From Alloascoidea africana (Eukaryota > Ascomycota > Alloascoideomycetes > Alloascoideales > Alloascoideaceae): a stretch of 64,000 nucleotides of DNA. Below, in pieces: positions 2,972 through 24,433 of this stretch (position 1 is its first letter; every line of letters starts with the position of its first letter). A program made the translations under genes and the position numbers. A model generated the notes under the pieces. The model made no database searches and was not told the DNA's origin. It saw only the letters and a program-made list of their open reading frames with translations. The stretch spans positions 1-64,000 of the forward strand of contig JAKTTT010000080.1 of NCBI GenBank assembly GCA_030581615.1, read 5' to 3'.

Positions 2972-3996
2972 CCTGAATTAACAAGGAATTAGAAATTGAA
3001 ATTGAAAGAATGAAAAAACCCAAGCAAATGACTCAACACCAAAACTCTTGAAGAAAAAGTGAATTATGAAGAGAAATACAGAGAATATATATAGATGTCT
3101 CCGAAACGTGTAAAAAGAGAGAGAGATCACTCAGGGCGCTGTGAGTTAGGAAATAAGCAGGCAGACGAAAGATTAAACTGGCCTTCTGCGAGATAGATGT
3201 TTTGCACACGCAAGATTCATGCACTGAAGTATTTTAAAGGTCAACGCTAAAGAAAGCAGTTCAGAGAACGTCAAAGCATTGAGCAGTACATGAGCAAGGT
3301 ATAAAAGCAAATCTGTGAGTAAGCGTGGCTGCCGAAAAGTAAAACAGAGGCCTGCTTGAAGCACCGAAACAGAAGAATATAGTCTTACTTGATGTTTCTG
3401 TCTAACGCTCATGTAAAGGTACACGAACTTGGATAGTTCGATGACAGGAAAACGCATGCATGTTGTTACTCCTTACAGTAATTCAGATTCGGCTTACTAC
3501 AGAAATCTCCAAATATGGGTGGCTACATACATGATCTAGAACCCTTCTTTGCCGCTGATTCTTGCCTCTCGATATGTTCAGGTTACCAAGGATAAAAGTA
3601 AAATTAAGTGCTCAAAACGATCTCAGACTAAAACATTTTTTGATTAGAGCAAAGAACCGTCTTTTCCGAATTCCTATTTGCACAAAATCCATTTGATCGT
3701 TTTTTCGTGAGTTTCCAATAAACGGTGATACCCAGCGGATGACAAAAAATACAATTGACGTCCTCCTTGTTTGTTGCTGCTTACTGCACACTAGTTGTTC
3801 TATTTCGCTTTTCAGCTTCTGGAAGCAAAAATCAGCCAATATAATATCTCAATGCAGGTTGGAGATTGAGTAAGATGCCTCGTTTTTTCTCTGCAATCTC
3901 CGAATTGTATGGAACATACATGTTCTTCTAGTGTGCTTGTCGAAAATGTTTTAAATTTCCAATATTCTAAAGATTTTATTGTCTAGTAGAGATCTA
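2972..3996. other. Adhesin upstream region, no gene seen
   Basis: About 1 kb between the adhesin start and the transposon. The small ORFs here have no domain resemblance. It most likely holds the adhesin promoter; the transposon insertion at 3997 lies about 1 kb upstream of the start codon. Confidence 0.5.
3086..3093 (-). promoter_or_regulatory. TATA box of the adhesin gene
   Basis: TATATATA lies 115 bp upstream of the adhesin ATG, a normal distance for a TATA-driven yeast promoter. Cell-wall genes under strong regulation usually have TATA promoters. Confidence 0.5.
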
Positions 3997-4186
3997 CAGT
4001 ACCCCACAGAATGATCATATGTATTATTTTCTCATGTTTTGAACAACCGCCACCACTTCATTTCCATAGCCATGAATTTGCTTTTAGTCAGATAATGTAG
4101 CCGATAGAGTTGAGCACTGTAGTATAAATTAGAGTATTTTGGGTGTTTAGTGATGACTTAGGTTAGGCTGAATCGTTTTTGAGAAA
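3997..4186 (+). repeat. Left terminal inverted repeat, 190 bp
   Basis: Matches the reverse complement of 5388-5577 at 187 of 190 positions by direct reading. The three differences lie in the outermost eight bases, next to the TA. Confidence 0.9.
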
Positions 4187-4499
4187 ATGAAGATTGTGCG
4201 GCGGAGCAAATAAAATCAAGCCAATGTTAATCTATAATCCTTTCTAGTCATTCAACACCCCCTTTTTTTGGTCAGTCAGTAGATAGCATGTATGTTTGTA
4301 TAGCTAAGTCAAAAAATTGCTTTTTTCTTGTCCGCCCTTGGTCAATGAGAGTTTTGTCCGACTTTGAAAGCCTATTAACCTCAAAAACTACTTAAGTTCA
4401 AGAGAAGTGGTAAGAAAAAGATACGTGGCACAATGATCTGTTTCCAAAGCTGCAAATGACCCCAAGTATAAGATAGTTGAATTGAAAATGGGGAGTGCT

Positions 4500-5340
4500 T
4501 TCTTCCTCGCATCTCCAACTTGCAGAGCGACTCATTGACTCAGGAAAAGTCGAAAATGCAGTCCAAGGACAACGGGTTTTAAAAATGAAACTAATAGAAG
4601 TGTATCCGTTGACACGGCACGTCAAATGATAAAAAAGAGAGAGTTCAGAACTGTAGCACAAAAGAAAAAAAGATCGCTATTGATGCCTCGACCCCGCGAG
4701 ACTAGGTTAGTCTTTGTCGAAATTCACATAGACTGGATCTTCAATGACTGGAAGAAAGTTGAATGGTCTTACAACGAGTCTAAAACAAGCAGACTAGTCT
4801 CGGATGTGCGAAAATGATCTTGGACCGAAACAGCGAAGGAGAAAGACATTAAAGTATGGTGGTGAATTGGTGATGATATGAGGACGCATGTTCCGGCACG
4901 GAGTTGGTGTTTATTACAGGGTAGAAGGTAGAATGACGGCAAATGTTTGTATTGGAGTTTTAGATAAAAAAACTATTGGGTTTATTGGCGTTAAAAAGGA
5001 AGGAAGTGCGAGACGTTATCTTTCAACAAGAATGATCCCAAGCACACCGCGAAAGAACAAGAGAATGATTCGAAGCCAAAGGTATTGAACTGCTAAAATG
5101 GCCTGCTCAATCGCCAGACCCGAACCCAATTTAGCATCTATGGGAATATCTGAAAATCAAGCTTGGTGAACATCCAAAGCCACCTTCTGGAATTCCCCAA
5201 CTTCAAGCCATAATTGAAAAAAATTGCAAGGCAATTCCCTCCTCTTTTTGTCAGCATTTAATTGAGGGTATGCCAAAGAGAATTGATAAATTTTACAGGA
5301 AAAGGGGAGTATATTTGTTTATTGAGGAGTTTTATATAAC
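4500..5340 (+). pseudogene. Decayed Tc1-type transposase
   Basis: Recognisable transposase segments run in order but in different frames. There is an HTH-side piece (about 4535-4640, IDSGKVENAVQ), a middle piece (4626-4817), the block around 4885-5030 (GVGVYYRVEGRMTA) and the C-terminal block 5085-5330 (ELLKWPAQSPDPNPI, then HLWEYLKIKL). All three DDE positions are affected: the Asp expected in WSDES is missing (WSYNES), the frame shifts at the QQD motif, and the Glu after NPI is a TAG stop. The exact N-terminus could not be fixed. Confidence 0.8.
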
Positions 5341-5387
5341 TATAGGATTTAATACTACAATTTTTTGTTCCAAAGCACAAACATCAG

Positions 5388-5577
5388 TTTCTCAAAAACG
5401 ATTCAGCCTAACCTAAGTCATCACTAAACACCCAAAATACTCTAATTTATACTACAGTGCTCAACTCTATCGGCTACATTATCTGACTAAAAGCAAATTC
5501 ATGGCTATGGAAATGAAGTGGTGGCGGTTGTTCAAAACATGAGAAAATAATACATATGATCATTCTGTGGGATGCTA
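5388..5577 (-). repeat. Right terminal inverted repeat, 190 bp
   Basis: Reverse-complement partner of 3997-4186. The outer end reads TAGCATCCC where the left end reads CAGTACCCC; all inner positions match. Confidence 0.9.
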
Positions 5578-5579
5578 TA

Positions 5580-7137
5580 TATTCATTTTTTAAACACTGG
5601 TACCACTAAAACTAGAAATAAAACCAAATATTTGTTTCGCTTTCTCTGTTTGGGTAGACAAAATGCTTTGATCTCTTATATTACTTATATCGGGAAAATG
5701 CCTAATTGAAAATGCGATCACATCTGCTGTCATAAAAAAGGCTATAGGGGTTGGCAAACATTGTTGCTTATTTCAAGAGGTGGTTGTGCTCGCGAAAAGT
5801 AGTCTAGTTTGTGTCAAGTCTGTCCACAAACATGGTCGATTAAACACTTGATCTACTAGAACTGCAAGACTGCCTCATATCAAATAAAAGCAACTACTTA
5901 TGCTTTAAATCATGGTAAGAAAAAAGTGGAAGTTGGCTTAATCATAGAAAGTGACTTGTATACCAAAACGGTAATCCATTATGAAGTTAGCCAAATTAGG
6001 CATAGCAGTGGCAAACTGAGATTTTAATCTTAAGCTGTTATTCTTGACTATGCACCAGCAGACATCTTTTAATCACAAGATCAATAAAAATCTCAACATC
6101 TTGTTGAGGCTTGTTTAATATATCTACAAGTTTAGTATCAAAGACTCTGGTTGGGAGTGGTGAATCTGTTCTCAAAGTTTACTTCGGTTAGCAAACCTAC
6201 CCCTAACACTTCAATTAGACAATGGGCTCAATTTTGACTTCAGGCCTTATTTCTTTGGTTATCAATCATGTCTCTAAAAGTCCTTTGCATCGTAAAGTCT
6301 CTGAACATTACATAACGATTTTGTTCCACAACAGAGTATTGGCCTGTAACATCTCTTTTGTCATTGCCCTCCAGGTCGATATTCTAAAAACACTTTAATC
6401 TGTCACTTTCTTTGTGCGTCCTTGGATTTTAGTGCTTGATGTGCTTGTTATGTTTTGTCACAAGCTAAATAACCAGGTGAGCGAGCACAATTAACAAAAA
6501 CTGTTTCAGGCTTATTAGAGATATTGAAGGTCATCAGATCTGGAATTAGGATGCGAGATTTCGAGAAACATGCTCCTCATTATTCTTGAATTACTGAGAG
6601 TGATGGGTTTTTGGAAAGTTCAGCTTGAATTAAATTATTTGAAAACACAAACTTCAGAACAGATGCTGACGGCCTATGCAAAAATCCCTCTATATCTAAC
6701 ACCCTAAAGCGTTCCTCTTTGTGTCGCTCTACAAAGAAAGTTTTTATTATAGTCCCCAGGCCACAGCGCTTATACTTTATTTTGGTTAGGACAAATCTTT
6801 GGGGTGCATTACAGGCCTATAAGACTTTATTTCATTTGTAATAGAGAAGGGATCATGTTTGAGTTGAGTGAGCGATTGATTCCTTCAATTAATTTTACAA
6901 CTAAGAGCATCGAAAAAATGAATTCTAGCAAGATAAGTGATAGCAGAAATTAGCATGGCAAGTTAATACTAAGAATGAAGTTGTTCTATATCTTTGGTTA
7001 ATTTCAGAGTAAACAATGATTTTAATGAAACGGAGGAGGAGAATAAAGAATATATGCCCACGTCCGTAATGTCTTTTGTTCATTCCTCATTACACTCACC
7101 TCTTGAGCGGCTCACACCAGATTCACTTTCAAGTAAA
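5580..7137. other. Gene-poor stretch, nothing recognised
   Basis: AT-rich, with no ORF that resembles a family. Short open pieces on the minus strand (about 5,950-6,420) look vaguely like degraded coding sequence but match nothing I can name. No tRNA-like A/B-box pair was found. Confidence 0.4.
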
Positions 7138-7146
7138 ATGTCATGA
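7138..7146 (+). promoter_or_regulatory. Minimal overlapping uORF (ATG TCA TGA)
   Basis: A two-codon upstream ORF whose stop codon overlaps the next start in the arrangement ATGA (main ATG at 7143). Ribosomes that start at the first ATG would stop one base past the main start codon. Leaky scanning or reinitiation would be needed to read the 119-residue ORF. Confidence 0.45.
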
Positions 7147-7502
7147 CGAGACGCGCCAAAGTTAGTCAAGGAAACAACTTAAGACTAAGGAGATCTCTAG
7201 AAAAGATCAAAAGAAAATTAAAGAAATATGGACCACTGAAAGTTGCAGTCAATGTATTGAAGCTTTTGTGCACTCTTGGCCTCATTCTCTACCGAGGATT
7301 GGGCGCTCAGTGGGCGTTATTCGCGCTTCCCACAGGAATAAACAATCTGTGGAATATTGGCATGGCAGTTGTCTTCATCTGTCACGAAGCCTTCCCTGTG
7401 ATCTGGAAGTTCATAAAGGATACTTGGGAATTCATCAGGTGTAGAAGAAAAGCCAAAAAGATGTATGAATATCTGGAAGAACAGCAAAACATGAGGCAGT
7501 AG
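7143..7502 (+). CDS. Small basic protein with two predicted membrane segments, unknown
   Basis: 119 residues. A Lys/Arg-rich N-terminus (RRSLEKIKRKLKK) is followed by hydrophobic segments at about residues 34-65 (VNVLKLLCTLGLILY onward) and about 70-85 (IGMAVVFICHEAFPVI), and a charged C-terminus (RCRRKAKKMYEYLEEQQ). I recognise no family. It stands alone in a gene-poor region; the nearest firm gene is 3.3 kb away. Composition (amphipathic ends, plausible helices) favours a real gene over a chance ORF, but there is no independent support. The start is taken as 7143, the first ATG of this frame. Confidence 0.4.
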   Translation: MTRRAKVSQGNNLRLRRSLEKIKRKLKKYGPLKVAVNVLKLLCTLGLILYRGLGAQWALFALPTGINNLWNIGMAVVFICHEAFPVIWKFIKDTWEFIRCRRKAKKMYEYLEEQQNMRQ

Positions 7503-10500
7503 CTATTTAAACGCCGAAACTGCGAAGGGATGGATCAGTGTACAGAGCCCAATTCTTTGTTAAGATTCGAAAAAGTGATTGCTGTTTGGAATAAACCTGT
7601 GTCTCGCTAATGAATAATCTGGTTTTGGATCAGCTTAAATCACAAAACCAAAGCTAACAAGCCCATTAATGAATGATAATCAACTGCTTTCATTTATACA
7701 AACGGAGAAAAAATTCGCCCGTTCTGTTGCAAAAGTGAACGTTTCCTAGATTCTTGTAGCTGTATTATCGTAAATTTTATGGATAGCTAATCCCTTGTCA
7801 AGATTAAAATCAAGAGTATGCGAAAATATCATATAGGCCAAAAGGTATTCACACTTAGCCAGTTTGGAGTTCATTTTGAAGGTAACGCTTGCAAATAAAA
7901 ACAATCTCATTTATTCACTATTTTCACAGGAGAAAGAAAATAATAGCTTTTTGTTATTGAAGGAGATTTAAGAAAATCAAAGTCTCGATTTTAGAGGGCA
8001 AAATAGAAGCCGATGTCATTTAACGCCTAGCTTATTATTGTAAAAGTATTTGAAATTTACTAATGTTAAATGCAATTTCTTCTAACTTCGTAGCAGTCAT
8101 GATTTATTATTAACGTGAGTTTTGTAAAGACCGTCTGGATCTGAAAGGTCATTCAAATGACAAATAAGAGATGGATGGCAGAACAGAAAAACTACAGTAC
8201 CTGTACTCATAATATATTGAAACTTTTGCCTTGACCAAGCAATTTTGTAAGTTAAAAGAGTACAATGCTTCCGGCTCATCGAAACCTGGTCCCTGGTCAT
8301 GTTAACTTTGGAATGCCCGTAAATTATTGGCAGTTCCCTCTACAAATGTGGTGCAATTAAAAACACCTTCAGCGAAAAGTTGAAGGAAACTACAGACTAG
8401 GGAAAAGATATGTCAAATATGCCCCGTTGCTGTATAAATTAAAGGCTGGACGTGGACGTGAATTACAATTGAAATTGGGCTATGGGGAGGCACCAAAGTT
8501 GTCTGTTCAATTATTCCCTGTTCCTGGCCGCAAATGGATACAAACTCATGGAGCAATAGAGCATCAATTTACAATATGAAAATGGCATTTCAATTCGAGA
8601 AACAGTTTCTCTGAAAACGGAGCTTTTTTCAAAGTTAGTCGATTCGTGAAATTGATGGGTTTGGCTTGTGCTTCATTAGTAACATGTCCTGCTTTGTCAA
8701 GCTCGGATCTAGGTAGGAGTACATCATTTCCTTCCCAATTACAGTTCGAAATGAATCTGTGGACATTCATGGGCTAACATGTAAGTCCACGGTCTAATAA
8801 TGAAAACCACAATGTGGACTGTTATATTATTGGTTTTCTTTCGTTTTGTTACTACATGGAGACAGCAATTATTATAGCTGTGCCACCTTGGATAACTAAC
8901 ATTATTCTAACAATTAGTACTTGAATTGGAAAAGATTTTCAATTACTGCTTTTGAGAACCCCAATCTCTTTATTTCCACCCACAACATTCTCTCCTTTCA
9001 AAGGTTTGTACCAGAGCAATTCTGTACTCAAGAAAGAAGCCTGTTGCTAGTTTTCTAAAGAGCAACTAGGTGGAAAGAGACGATACGGAACATGAAAACC
9101 CCTACGGTCACTTACCATATTTGCTACGACTCTGGCTGCTGTGGTTTACATGACAACAGAAAAGCGAAAACCTTGATCACAAAATTTCTGCAGAAGGCAC
9201 CCAAAATACATAACAGAGCAATGGTGCAAGCAGTGTAGTACCAAATCTACCAGATACCGAAAATATCTCAAATCTTCGGACGTGCATTAAACAGTAGAAT
9301 AAGGAGAACAAAAAAACATAGAGATGCATATCGAGTGATGGAAACTGTGAAACACCTGCATCATACATATATGTGTATTGTACCAATCGTCCAAATCTTT
9401 ATACTTTTTGAGAAGCAGATTTTCCTTGCTTAGCTACACGCTCAAGTTTCTCAATTATTGACAGAGGGATTCTGATAAACAATCTGATTTCTTCACCATA
9501 ATGAAAAAGGTTTAGAAAAGTAGAATAGGTTGCCAATAGTAAACTGATTGCTTTCTTATGGACTATGCATCTTTCAAATTATTCTGATTAGTTTGCACTT
9601 ATACAGAAATTGGGATTTCCTAATAGATCGTATCTGACCCGCATAAACCTCCATGGCTGTATGCAACAGCAATACCTTCTCATCACCCAATTCACCGGAT
9701 TTTCAATCATACTTGACTTGTGCAAAGAAGCAAAGGTGCAGTTCACCAGTAAAAGTGAAAAATATGCCTTCCTTGCAGTAACTAACTTGAGCCGAACGAA
9801 CGCCTGTTGTGAGAAATAGCATTATCATCCGTCACAGTACAATTCAGATTTATGGCTTAGCCATGAACCTTGTTACAATTTGTGATACTAAACCTTTTGA
9901 ATTACAGTTTCGATGTTCGCCATTATCTAAAAACACGATTCCGATCGGAAAAACGAGCTGCATAGCTCTTATTAAATTGGTATTACTTCATCTGATTCAA
10001 AAGACTTGAATAATTGGGATCACAGATCAAAAGTTCATTGAATCAAACGCATAATAATGTTCCTTGTGATCACAGTTATTTCTTTTGAGGTCTTTTGGAC
10101 CGAACCCAAGTAGGCTGCTCTTGAGAATCACTTTGGATATTTTTCTTCATAATAGATATTTGTAAGGGTTCGGGTGACTATAGGTTCATGATTCACACAC
10201 TTCCTTGATGATTCCTCTATTGCTCTGTAGGAACTAGGCTATTTATATAACGGAATTCCTGGGCTGAAACCGGGATGCCATGAGGCAGGGACGTCCGTAT
10301 CCTAACAATATTCACCCCAGATGTTTTTACCCTGTCTTCAAACTTCTATCCAACTCTTATGATGGGTATATGATACTGTATTATTCTCTTTCCCGGTCAT
10401 TCAGGTATCCACATGTTACAACTTCCTCAGGAGAGTAATACTGAAAAGTAACGCAGTATAATGAATTGAAAACTATATGATCATAAGGAATACAAATGAC

Positions 10501-10839
10501 GATGACTAATGAGCAGGACCTGACTTTGGTAAAACTTCGTAAGGATGAAATTATTATTGTACAATAAGAAAAGCAATACCCTAGCATAACGAATATATTG
10601 CGATTGTTGCCGTGAGATGATCGTAATAAGCTTTGAATCTAAAGAGGTAGCTGTCCAGAATTTTCCTCAGATCAGGACAATTTCAAACCACCATCTCAAA
10701 GATCTCGACCCGGAAAAACACTTAAAAGTGCTAACCACTGATTCATAAACCCTTTATAAGACTTATGAAGTTAAGGGATCTTTAATGTGAATATGGAAAA
10801 GAGAATGGCAAAGTAAGTACTCTTGGTTAACACCTGGCG
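7503..10839. other. 3.3-kb stretch with no supported gene
   Basis: Only short ORFs (under 70 codons) without domain features on either strand. No tRNA boxes or long repeats were seen. I looked for small multi-intron genes by donor, branch and acceptor signals and found none that assembled into a known protein. Confidence 0.4.
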
Positions 10840-16301: not shown

Positions 16302-19256
16302 ATGTTCGAGGTTGGTAAGCGTCCAAACACCACGGGGATTTCCGTTTCTCAAAAGGTATTCGTGCGGTCGCGAAACGGAACTGCTGCAAAGATTGTCAGG
16401 GAGCACTATCTCCGCGATGACATTCCGTGCTCTTCACAGCTATGCTCTAGATGCGAGCCTGTGACTGATGCGAATGGCAAGGCAATCCCATTCATTCTGT
16501 CAAGGGACCCATTGAATGTTAAACAAATTGGCAGACATTATGTTGTGCTAAGCTTGGAACTTTGCCTCAACGCTATCGATCTACTTGAGAACCCAACTGC
16601 TTTCAATGACGCTATTATCCCGCAAACTGTTTTAGAAGAGGTTAAATCACAGAGCCTACCTATTTATAATAGGCTCCGAATTTTGACTAGGAGTGGCGAT
16701 AAACGTTTCTACGTCTTCCATAATGAATTCCGGCATGACACATTTGTGAAGAGAAACCCTGGTGAGAGTATACAAGGCCGAAATCAGCGTGCAGTTCGAA
16801 AAGTAGCATCATGGTACCAAGATCATTTAAAAGATATTAGCATTGTTCTATTGTCCATGAGAAAACAAGACAACATTTCAGAAGACGAAAAAATCATTGA
16901 ACTCGGATTGGAAAAGTATGTTCAACTTTTACCCAACCATAGCGATCTGATAGACTCAATCCCAACTTTTGAAAAGGAGGATGCGAATGTAAAGCCCGAA
17001 GCTTCTTTCCCTGAATACTACACAGCTGCCCGATTAATGGGTGGTATTCGAAATTCGACGCTGTACCAAGGCCCCATCTCAATAAATGTCTATAACTTTC
17101 TGGAGGGCACAGTAAAAGTTCCACAATTTCAGAAACCATTGCTGATCCTCGGGAAAAAGAATCTGAACAGAGCATTTAATGGTGATTTTGTCATTGTAGA
17201 GCTGCTTCCCAAATCAAAATGGAAAGAGCCTTCCTTACAAATTTTAGAGGCTGATGAACTGGAAAAGGATACTGGAAATGCGGACGATAATTCTTTTACT
17301 ATTTCTGACCAAGAGAGGAAGCAGTTGGCCAAGGAGGCATTGCAAGCACAAACTCCAACTGATCACGACAATAGATCAAGACTGCAACCTACCGCCCGAG
17401 TGGTGGGAATCCAAAGACGAAACTGGAGATTATACGTTGGACAGATTGCGCCACAATCTATTCCCGAATCACTATCTAATGAGTCCTCCAGTTCGGTATT
17501 GGCCACGACAATCTCTGCCCAAAGCGTATTTGTTGTTCTCATGGACAAGACTTTACCAAGGGTCAGGATACGAACCAGAAAGGCAGGGGAATTGCTTGGA
17601 CAGAGGATTGTCGTTGCTGTTGATGCTTGGCCCTCGACTTCGTTGCACCCAGAAGGCCATTTTGTTCGCGCTCTTGGTCCAATAGAATCTGAAGCAGCTG
17701 AAACAGAAGCTCTGCTTTTAGAGCACGATGTCGAGTACCGCCCTTTTGCAAAAAGCGTAGTAGAATGCCTACCAAAAGAAGGCGACAATTGGGTTGTTCC
17801 AGCTGTAATTGGCGAAAAGGCAGAGGATGAACAACTGAGAAAGCGAAAAGATTTGCGTATGCTGAATGTTTGCTCTATTGATCCACCAGGGTGCCAGGAC
17901 ATCGACGATGCACTTCACGCCCGCCAGCTGGAAAATGGAAACTATGAGGTTGGTGTCCACATTGCGGATGTCACACATTTTGTTAAACCAAATACTCCTC
18001 TAGATGCAGAGGCTGCTTCTAGAGGCACATCTGTGTATCTTGTGGACAAGCGAATTGACATGCTTCCAATGCTTCTGGGTACAAACCTTTGTTCGTTGCG
18101 GCCCCATGTAGAGAGATATGCTTTTTCGGTCATTTGGGAGTTGGATAGCGATGCAAACATTATTAACGTGGACTACATGAAATCCATAATTAAGTCAAGC
18201 GAGGCTTTCAGTTATGAAGCTGCACAGCTCCGTATAGAAGACCCCAAACAGAAAGATGAACTAACGGAAGGAATGCGAATCTTACTCAGACTTTCGAAGA
18301 AACTCAAGCAAAAAAGATTAGATGCTGGCGCATTAAATTTGGCCAGTCCGGAAGTTAAAGTCTACATGGATAGCGAGACCTCCGATCCAAATCAAGTCGA
18401 GATTAAAAAACTGCTAGAGACCAACTCTCTTGTTGAAGAGTTCATGCTTTTTGCAAATATTAGTGTCGCTAGAAAAATCTATGATGCATTCCCTCAGACT
18501 GCAATGCTGAGAAGACATGCTCCCCCTCCATCTTCAAATTTTGAGATTCTGAATGATGAACTTCAGGTGAGAAAGCAAGTGAGCATCAGCGTGGCAAGCT
18601 CGAGAGCATTGGCTGACTCGCTAGATCGGTGCATTGATACCAAAGAGCCTTACTTTAACACACTTTGCAGAATTATGGCGACTAGATGTATGATGGCTGC
18701 GGAGTACTTCAGTTCCGGCTCTTATGGATATTCTGAATTTAGACATTACGGCCTTGCCGTGGATATTTATACGCATTTTACAAGTCCGATTAGGAGATAC
18801 GCTGATGTGGTTGCTCATCGACAGCTTGCTGCAGCCATAGGTTACGAATCTCTAGATCTGAACCATAGGGATAAGTTCAAAATGGAGCAAGTTTGTAGGA
18901 ACATCAATAAGAGACATCGCAATGCACAGTTCGCTGGAAGAGCTAGCATTGAATATTATGTTGGCCAGGTGTTGAAGAAAAGCGAATCTGATCAAGAAGG
19001 ATTCATTATCAAGGTTTTTGAGAATGGTATTGTTGTCCTTGTACCCAAATTTGGCGTTGAAGGCATGATCAGACTGGAAAACATTTGCACAAAACCCGAA
19101 ACTGTCGTCTTCAACGAGGAGCGGTATTCATTGGATTTTGAGGAACAGAACAACAAGAGGAAAACTATTGGACTGTTTGACAAGGTGAAAGTCAAAGTAG
19201 AGAGTATTTTGGATGAAACTACTGGAAAGAGGAAAGCACAACTTTCATTGTTATGA
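16302..19256 (+). CDS. DIS3: Dis3/Rrp44, catalytic 3'-5' exoribonuclease of the RNA exosome, with degenerate PIN site
   Basis: 984 residues, the usual length. The order is CR3 motif (C43, C48, C51), PIN domain (about 70-210), two cold-shock domains, RNB domain and S1 domain (about 890-984). The RNB active site is intact ([11 protein letters not shown], about 530-540, and MLPMLLGT). It binds the exosome core and degrades nuclear and cytoplasmic RNA. The PIN domain is well conserved around its fold ([19 protein letters not shown]), but the catalytic acids are mostly gone relative to yeast Rrp44. D91 is Ser84 (VVLSLE instead of VVLDTN), D171 is Gln162 (RNQR), and D198 aligns with Arg187. E120 is kept (VLEEV). 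The endonuclease should be inactive, leaving PIN as a tether. CTG encodes a conserved Leu at residue 592. It starts 81 bp after the DAL81-like stop, on the same strand. Confidence 0.97.
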
Positions 19257-21879: not shown

Positions 21880-24433
21880 ATGGGGCACACAAATGCCATT
21901 GAAAAGGGTATGTTTTCCTGTCTCTTTTTTCTTCTCATTTCGCTGAGTTGGCTAATACAAATGTGTAGGCCCAAATACAATACGTATTTTGGTGACCACA
22001 GACAATCATGTTGGGTTCTGTGAACAGGATCCAATTCGAGGAAACGACTCATGGATAACATTCGAAGAAGCTATAAAGCTGGGAAAGGAGCATGATGTAT
22101 GTTAGGTTCACAAATTTAGGCACTAGAAATTGGTTGACACGTTCGAGTTAACCACTGTACTAGGTAGACATGATTCTTCAAGCAGGAGATCTCTTCCACA
22201 TAAACAAGCCAAGCAAGAAATCAATGTTCCAGGTTATAAGAACGCTGAGAAATAACTGTCTTGGAGACAAACCATGCGAATTGGAGCTGTTAAGTGACTC
22301 GAGTCTGGCGTTGGATGACATAGTGGATCATGTAAACTATGAAGATCCGGATATAAATGTGGGAATTCCTGTTTTCTCAATAAGCGGGAACCATGACGAT
22401 GCCAGTGGTGAAGGGCTGCTCGCACCAATGGACGTCCTATCTGCAACAGGCTTGATCAATCATTTCGGAAGGGTCAGCCAGAACGATAATATTACAGTTA
22501 CGCCTTTACTGTTTCAAAAGGGGTATACAAAACTATCTCTGTATGGATTGGCAAGTGTTCGAGATGAACGCCTCTTCCGCACTTTTCGCGAAGGAAATGT
22601 CAAATTCCTAAGGCCTAACATTAAACAAGAAGAATGGTTCAATCTTATAGCCGTCCACCAGAATCGAAATCCACATTCTGAAACTGACTACCTTCCAGAA
22701 AACTTTCTTCCGGACTTTCTCGATCTAGTAATCTGGGGCCATGAGCATGAATGTCTAATTGATCCACAGCCGAACTCCACTACCGGGTTCGATGTCATCC
22801 AACCTGGAAGCTCCGTTGCGACTTCACTCTGTGAAGCTGAAGCGGTTGAAAAATTCGTGTGTATTGTATCAATCAATAAGACCGATTTTTCTATGGAAAA
22901 GTTACCCTTAAAGAGTGTTAGACCGTTTATTATGAATGACATATGCTTAACAAGAGATGCTGGCATTCCATCAGGAGGTAAAGATACCAAAGCACAGGTT
23001 ACTGCTTTTCTGATGGAAAGAGTTGAACAACTGGTTGAGGAAGCAAGAAGTAAATGGATACAAAGCCAGGGAGATAATTATAACCCAGAAGTTTCAAAAC
23101 CACCTTTACCACTAATTCGTCTGAGGGTCGAATATACAGGGTATGAAGTTGAAAATCCACGGAGGTTTTCAAACAGATTCGTAGGTAGTGTTGCAAATGT
23201 AAACGATGTCGTTCAATTTTACAAGCGGCGGGCGGCAGGTTCACGAAAAGCAACAGGGAATAAGAATCTTGACCTTGAGGATTTGAATCTTGACGATGGC
23301 GGTCCTCAGAAGGCACACATTGAAGATCTTCTTGATGGTTTTCTGAAGGAAGAAGAACTGAATTTACTACCTGAAAATGGTTTCAACAATGCGGTAAAAC
23401 AATTTGTGGATAAGGAGGACAAGCAGGCTTTGAAAGAGTATGTGTACACGTCTGCTTCCATTGTGTTTTAGTACTAACGCTTCAATTCTGGTAGATTCGT
23501 TGACGAGTCGTTAAGCGCGCAGGTAGAAGAGTTGGTAAATGCAGGAGTTGCGGAAGATGATGTTCAAGAATTAATAAAGCAAAACAAGACACATCTTTCT
23601 CAAATAATCGATAAGAGCGAATCAAAGAAATTGCCAAAAACTATCAGAACAAAAGCAGCGCCACGTGCGAATAACAGAACAAGAGAAACTCGAACGGTAG
23701 TTCCGCGAAGGGGAGCCAGAAGGAAAGCACAAAGTGAAGAAGTTGTCAATTCAGATGGAGAAGGTTTGGAAGACCTGGGGTCTGAGGAAGAGCAAGAAAA
23801 TGCTTTGACAAACTCAAAGAACGCGCCTTTGAGAAGGGTAGGCGCACGAGATACCGGACGGACAAGGGGATCTGCTCGCAATAACAGAACATCTGGAGTT
23901 CAAAAAAGCGGAAGAAGAAGGGCAAATGCTGTTCAGTATAGCGAAGACGAATTTGAGGCTTTGGAGGAGGATGAAGAGGATGGAATGGATGATTTCCTTG
24001 ATGATCAAGAGATGGAGGATTTCATCGATGAAGAACCGCAACGCCAACCAGTTAAGAAGGTGTATGCAACTTTACTTTTGGCACCATGATTTTGAAAGCT
24101 TGGATATTTCTAACTAATGCAGAACTAGAACTTCAAGAGCCGCCGCAACCTCTTCAAGAGCAAAGTCTTCAAAGCCAACACGAAAAACACAGCAAGCCAC
24201 TTTTGATACAGTACTTTCTACGACAAGAAACACAAGGGGGAGTAGACAAAGAGCCCCAAAACCAACTCCACGCGAAACCAAAACGTCTATCACCCAGCAA
24301 AGGGTAAGGAGGCTTCCTCCTCCCAAGGATTCGGTAGGTAGAGTCGAATGTAAAACATGTTGATGTGTGGTTACTAACTTATCATTACTTTTAGATTCAG
24401 ATAGACTCATCTGATGGGTTTGAATCACTATAG
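21880..24433 (+). CDS. MRE11: Mre11, double-strand-break repair nuclease of the MRX/MRN complex
   Basis: Six exons: 21880-21907, 21969-22096, 22164-23437, 23495-24061, 24123-24333 and 24395-24433, 748 residues. The five introns are 57-67 bp; intron 3 has a perfect TACTAAC and intron 5 ACTAAC. The phosphoesterase motifs are all present: TTDNHVG (D21, H23), GDLFH (D61), GNHD (N128, H129), H217 and GHEHE (H245, H247). Mre11 has Mn-dependent endo- and 3'-5' exonuclease activity and, with Rad50 and Nbs1/Xrs2, resects and tethers DNA ends. The C-terminal part is Arg/Gly/Ser-rich with an acidic patch ([13 protein letters not shown]), as usual, and ends [10 protein letters not shown]. The donor of intron 5 is least certain: GTAGGT at 24334 fits the intron size range, but GTAAGG at 24303 is an alternative. 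Confidence 0.93.

Follow-up and report, generated by a model that had tools for sequence, protein, structure and literature searches.

A DIS3/Rrp44 orthologue of Alloascoidea africana that has lost three of four PIN-domain catalytic acids and probably its endonuclease site

Does the exosome nuclease DIS3 (Rrp44) of the yeast Alloascoidea africana still carry a working endonuclease? The question is raised by a gene on contig JAKTTT010000080.1 (assembly GCA_030581615.1), of which positions 1 to 64,000 of the forward strand were analysed; this whole 64-kilobase (64-kb) stretch is called the window below. A survey of 76 species reported that all Dis3 homologues keep the catalytic residues of the PIN domain, Dis3L1 being the exception (PMC8097288; papers are cited by their PubMed Central, PMC, identifiers). 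The A. africana protein retains one of these four acids: it descends from DIS3 as an orthologue but does not belong among the DIS3 proteins with two activities. The substitutions are focused on the catalytic motifs, and the docking residues and those of the RNB exonuclease site are retained. As judged from the sequence, its PIN domain is very probably a pseudo-endonuclease that tethers but no longer cuts, accompanied by a live exonuclease.

The rrp44-endo allele of Saccharomyces cerevisiae mutates the PIN residues D91, E120, D171 and D198 (PMC3526797). When the A. africana protein is aligned with wild-type Rrp44 (chain 6lqs_R4) by phmmer, D91 is paired with Ser84 (codon AGC, 16551-16553), D171 with Gln162 (CAG, 16785-16787) and D198 with Arg187 (AGA, 16860-16862), and E120 is the only acid that survives, as Glu113 (GAG, 16638-16640). 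These are the replacements proposed in an earlier note on this DNA, and the phmmer alignment agrees with them, with the reservation that D198 could have been deleted instead: it faces a gap both in a BLOSUM pairwise alignment and in MAFFT, and phmmer alone pairs it with Arg187. Asp could have reappeared at the lost sites once gaps were corrected, but no version of the alignment places an acid there. The motif 3 stretch reads IVLLSMRK against VVLVTNDR in Rrp44, and the nearest acid after it is D190, three residues beyond Arg187. Further residues of all three motifs have been lost together with the acids. The elements of the domain, all assigned by alignment, are as follows.

16530..16916, plus strand: PIN domain with a degenerate catalytic site (also matched by PIN_4)
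16551..16562, plus strand: motif 1, reading SLEL where Rrp44 has DTNV (Ser84 for D91)
16638..16640, plus strand: Glu113 (S. cerevisiae E120), the sole catalytic acid kept
16773..16787, plus strand: motif 2, reading QGRNQ where Rrp44 has NDRND (Gln162 for D171)
16824..16826, plus strand: His175 (S. cerevisiae H184), kept and presumably linked to the cysteines of the CR3 region
16854..16862, plus strand: motif 3, reading SMR where Rrp44 has TND (Arg187 for D198, unless D198 was deleted)

Odd residues of this sort might be the product of a sequencing or assembly error or of a local frameshift. The sites, however, are separate, lie in an open frame of 984 codons and are flanked by conserved sequence, and the other two frames at motif 1, inspected by eye, do not give DTNV. 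The minimal number of base changes to an Asp codon is two for Ser84, two for Gln162 and three for Arg187, the last value being void if D198 was deleted and not replaced. Because two to three base changes would be required at each site and the neighbouring residues are lost as well, a sequencing slip is very unlikely, and the chance that error explains the sites is practically negligible. An intron across a catalytic motif was rejected, the frame being open throughout. An altered genetic code was rejected too: Asp codons are not involved, and CTG is paired with Leu of Rrp44 in 15 of 20 cases, so that the standard code fits.

The consequences of the losses can be judged from human DIS3. D69, D146 and D177, the counterparts of the three lost Asp residues, are described as essential, and a change of D146 abolishes the endonuclease activity; E97, the counterpart of Glu113, shows no strict conservation among PIN domains (PMC6024818). 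According to the same source, PIN sites use three to four metal-coordinating acids, the third Asp being the most conserved, and in A. africana only Glu113 is left. Since Asp residues that are essential in the human enzyme are absent, the endonuclease should be dead, and the site itself is probably inactive. A PIN fold is predicted from the PIN_4 profile and from homology to solved PIN chains. The profile scores 36 bits (cut-off 21.9), whereas S. cerevisiae Rrp44 reaches 78 bits and human DIS3 75 bits. In A. africana the match begins past motif 1, at residue 88 and profile position 8. An unrelated domain that appeared below threshold in the Pfam scan of the human DIS3 PIN (19.6 bits, cut-off 25) was ignored as noise.

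Could the active site have been rebuilt from other acids? Glu113 might hold the metal together with two new acids, Glu86 in motif 1 and Asp190 past motif 3, and the domain would then still cut. PIN sites use three to four acids (PMC6024818), and Glu86 lies two residues past the lost D91 and Asp190 three past Arg187. The position of the most conserved third Asp, however, is occupied by Gln with no acid adjoining it, Arg187 is positively charged and stands at the metal site or next to it, and motif 1 falls outside the PIN_4 match. A rebuilt site is consequently considered very unlikely.

Whether the loss is focused on the active site was examined with S. cerevisiae Rrp44, human DIS3 and human DIS3L as the comparison proteins; the motif limits were our own choice and the motif 3 gap was closed by hand in the column tests, so that their p values are indicative. 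Among the columns identical in Rrp44 and human DIS3, 10 of 12 are changed in the three motifs, and the remainder of the N-terminal part has 16 of 74 changed (p = 6e-5, Fisher test; one column hand-placed). The same test restricted to the PIN domain, with the gap again closed by hand, gives 10 of 12 in the motifs and 13 of 49 in the rest (p = 5e-4). A relative-rate test, in which human DIS3 served as the outgroup, counted the changes unique to A. africana and those unique to S. cerevisiae, with the motif 3 gap hand-closed. The counts were 10 and 0 in the motif columns (p = 0.002), 13 and 8 in the rest of the PIN domain (p = 0.38), and 54 and 55 in the whole protein minus the motifs (p = 1.0). 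Keeping the MAFFT gap removes N197 and D198 from the count, and the respective values then become 8 and 0, 11 and 8, and 52 and 55. These counts argue against a general decay of the protein and place the decay in the catalytic site.

The elements by which DIS3 is held on the exosome have been preserved. The CR3 region and the YxRxD motif anchor Rrp44 to the exosome barrel, and a loop of the FTNEHHR type touches both the exosome and RNA (PMC6024818). Another loop, residues 60-67 of yeast Rrp44, contacts Rrp41 and is reported to be missing from human DIS3 (PMC6072439). The A. africana counterparts are listed below; the second is our own assignment.

16335..16529, plus strand: N-terminal CR3 region (alignment; motif names from PMC6024818)
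16407-16421, plus strand: YLRDD, which fits YxRxD (alignment; motif name from PMC6024818)
within 16428-16454, plus strand: CR3 cysteines C43, C48 and C51 (alignment)
16461..16484, plus strand: counterpart of the Rrp41-contacting loop, S. cerevisiae residues 60-67 (alignment; loop definition from PMC6072439)
16716..16736, plus strand: FHNEFRH loop, equivalent to human FTNEHHR (exosome and RNA contact, PMC6024818)

The three cysteines, which had been noted earlier as kept, align with C47, C52 and C55 of S. cerevisiae. All eight positions of the Rrp41-contacting loop are present, and three of them are identical to the yeast residues. Columns that S. cerevisiae DIS3 has in common both with human DIS3 and with the DIS3L pseudo-PIN would mark the needs of a PIN domain that is bound to the exosome without cutting. 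They are kept at 34 of 38 positions, and of the four that are lost three belong to the catalytic motifs; the same count in two other alignments gives 33 of 37. Binding to the nine-subunit exosome core is predicted from these retained residues.

The retained residues also bear on the idea that the entire PIN domain is decaying under relaxed constraint, so that it no longer tethers and DIS3 docks by other contacts. The identity of the PIN domain to Rrp44 is about 53%, lower than the 77% of the RNB domain, and the rest of the domain has a non-significant excess of changes on the A. africana side. This excess, however, is far below that seen in the motifs, and neither the preservation of the shared columns nor that of the CR3 cysteines, the YxRxD match and the FHNEFRH loop would be expected of a domain in decay. 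Such a general decay is regarded as highly improbable.

The exonuclease site, in contrast to the endonuclease site, appears complete. The published Dis3 signature of the RNB domain, DPPgCxDIDD (PMC8097288), is matched at 17880-17909 with its active-site acids intact, which bears out the earlier statement that this motif is undamaged. The sequence thus supports what had been suggested for the protein as a whole, namely an endonuclease site that is lost next to tethering elements and an RNB site that are kept.

The following picture may be proposed for the pseudo-endonuclease. The surfaces by which DIS3 plugs into the exosome barrel would stay under constraint and the site for 3'-5' exonucleolysis is complete; the two-metal endonuclease site could not form because the three essential Asp residues are missing. 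RNA would then pass along the barrel and be degraded from its 3' end only. The Rrp44 endonuclease has been proposed to release stalled substrates (PMC3526797); in A. africana such substrates might be freed by helicases, by Rrp6 or by other nucleases. Loss of the endonuclease alone gives no detectable growth phenotype, so that such a loss is tolerable, but in yeast D171N becomes lethal when combined with exonuclease defects (PMC3902924).

Several observations weigh against this interpretation. The E97A change in human DIS3 reduces activity, so the counterpart of the Glu that is kept here does matter (PMC6024818). A single-sequence AlphaFold2 model of residues 1-237 reached a mean pLDDT (predicted local distance difference test) of only 37, too low to place Glu86 and Asp190 relative to the old metal site, and was left unused. 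Two residues are missing, in the pairwise alignment, directly before the Rrp41-contacting loop. The limits of the motifs were chosen after the alignment had been seen, and the comparison is confined to the three proteins named above. A plain hypergeometric test of the catalytic acids, three of four changed given 26 of 86 changed columns, is weak (p = 0.08), and with the MAFFT gap, two of three changed, p becomes 0.21. The RNB domain itself has 18 changes unique to A. africana and 9 unique to S. cerevisiae (p = 0.08, MAFFT-gap version), which means that the parts of the protein do not all behave alike.

The identity of the gene as a DIS3 orthologue, and not DIS3L, is indicated by its scores and by its layout. 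Over residues 10-983 the protein scores 1348 bits in phmmer against S. cerevisiae Rrp44/Dis3, the best value among the chains of the PDB, followed by human DIS3 (770), DIS3L (479), DIS3L2 (321) and SSD1 (134). Pfam finds PIN_4, Rrp44_CSD1, OB_Dis3, RNB and Rrp44_S1 in the same order as in DIS3, and the full-length order CR3-PIN-CSD1-CSD2-RNB-S1, where CSD stands for cold-shock domain, is that of DIS3/Rrp44. The S1 domain reaches residue 981 of 984, and the match to Rrp44 extends as far as residue 1000 in a chain of 1001 residues. The gene consists of one uninterrupted frame, stop included, that needs no intron.

16302..19256, plus strand: DIS3/Rrp44 orthologue, 984 amino acids (phmmer, Pfam)
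17004..17420, plus strand: cold-shock domain 1, PF17216 (Pfam)
17526..17729, plus strand: cold-shock domain 2, PF17849 (Pfam)
17844..18839, plus strand: RNB exonuclease domain (Pfam, alignment)
17880-17909, plus strand: RNB active-site motif, intact (match to the published Dis3 signature)
18990..19244, plus strand: S1 domain, PF17215 (Pfam)

Is this the only DIS3 of the species? The present copy could be one of two subfunctionalised duplicates, dead in its PIN domain while a second DIS3 with an active one is encoded elsewhere, and animals do have such an arrangement in DIS3 and DIS3L (PMC8097288). Against a duplicate stand the reports that fungi have one copy of Rrp44 (PMC3838930) and that Dis3 is mostly single-copy (PMC8097288). 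The rate of change outside the motifs, moreover, equals that of Rrp44, which would fit a sole housekeeping copy. No second PIN copy was found by tblastn in the window, the only sequence searched. A second, active DIS3 is considered unlikely, and the gene described here would be the sole DIS3 of A. africana.

Compared with S. cerevisiae Rrp44/Dis3, the A. africana protein has the same order of domains, intact RNB acids in the 77% identical RNB domain and a Rrp41-contact loop; it differs in having lost three acids of the PIN domain, all four of which are present in Rrp44 together with an active endonuclease. The rrp44-endo mutants (D91N, E120Q, D171N and D198N, or D171N alone) likewise have the endonuclease off and the exonuclease on (PMC3526797, PMC3902924). 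They are engineered, whereas the A. africana change is natural and extends to further residues of the motifs.

A similarity to human DIS3L (DIS3L1) had also been suggested, and it holds for function only. DIS3L has an active RNB domain, and its compromised PIN domain has been suggested to be purely structural (PMC11540850), so that both proteins are exosome nucleases with an intact RNB and a compromised PIN site. The acids that were lost are different. In DIS3L, D62 (equivalent to D91) and D166 (equivalent to D198) are kept, whereas A90 stands in place of the Glu (E120) and T140 in place of the third Asp (D171), a pattern that agrees with the 'two important acidic residues' mentioned in PMC4598762. 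A. africana DIS3 keeps the Glu and has lost three Asp residues, and only the position of D171 is lost in both. DIS3L has an extra C-terminal domain (PMC11540850), whereas the A. africana protein ends at S1, and the PIN domain of human DIS3L gives no PIN_4 match at E values up to 1, compared with 36 bits here. As the scores of 1348 and 479 bits indicate, the gene is not a DIS3L by descent. Dis3L1 is reported only from metazoa, where it occurs beside an active DIS3 (PMC8097288).

Giardia Rrp44 is another exosome nuclease that naturally lacks a PIN endonuclease (PMC3282835); in A. africana the domain persists and the loss is limited to its site. SMG5 is a pseudo-PIN in the sense of a PIN fold without a catalytic set of its own, and differs in that it lends an Asp to the site of SMG6 to form a composite enzyme (PMC12923823); no such partner was seen reported for DIS3. 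An extended version of the present interpretation would be that the only DIS3 of a whole yeast lineage is free of endonuclease and that the old metal site, now Ser, Gln and Arg, is reused, either as a surface that guides RNA or as a helper that completes the site of another PIN protein as SMG5 does for SMG6. This extended version is considered quite unlikely.

No fungal DIS3 with a dead PIN domain was found reported in the open-licence PMC literature (preprints excluded), as covered by titles and the beginnings of abstracts among the matches listed, which is not proof of absence. The available portions of papers on Plasmodium Dis3 (PMC6282785) and Arabidopsis RRP44A (PMC3820695) mention a PIN region, and no dead site is described there. 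Relatives were sought with the single protein, which matched by pattern one stretch in viral contigs and 19 in genome contigs, and with a three-sequence PIN alignment, which matched 92 stretches in genome contigs and 62 in viral contigs; none was confirmed in either case. A tblastn search of plasmids returned 111 records, none of which covers 80% of the query; the 10 that were inspected are bacterial, and 8 of these 10 are annotated as ribonuclease R. An Rrp44_CSD1 search of one plasmid record and 14 control genomes gave no match anywhere and is hence uninformative. The collections searched yielded no fungal relative.

Other families encoded in the window are NOP19, PROPPIN, a fungal transcription-factor domain, ABC ATPase, MRE11, DEAD-box helicase, RasGEF, Hsp70, GYF and Sec7. 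These families are fungal and, with the closeness of DIS3 to S. cerevisiae, point to an ascomycete yeast. The MRE11 gene, at about 21881-23471 on the plus strand, apparently contains a pair of short introns close to the 5' end, each beginning with GTATGT (limits by eye), whereas DIS3 needs none. Positions 1-2971 on the minus strand hold a Flo11-type adhesin-like gene, with a Flo11 domain at 2408-2971 that scores 24 bits, just below the Pfam cut-off of 25. Two further copies of the domain were recognized by eye farther on in the same frame, with Ser-rich and tandem-repeat tracts between the copies; just past the first copy, at about 2410-2402, the frame contains two stops. The region adjoining this gene, 3458-10839, is gene-poor and has a G+C content of 0.37-0.38 in most 2-kb bins compared with 0.42 overall; its only frames of at least 80 amino acids are 4398-4661 on the minus strand and 7143-7502 on the plus strand.

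As read from its sequence, the A. africana gene is a DIS3 orthologue that lacks a trait stated for all DIS3 proteins, and it is in this respect an exception to the statement of PMC8097288. If the interpretation is true, an exosome nuclease with a dead endonuclease has had an independent origin in fungi, beside the DIS3L of animals. The DIS3 endonuclease is active in yeast and in human, though its removal alone has no detectable effect on growth (PMC3902924), which raises the question of what maintains the endonuclease in evolution. A natural lineage without it, in which the rest of DIS3 is constrained, would be an evolutionary experiment that asks which substrates or partner enzymes have changed.
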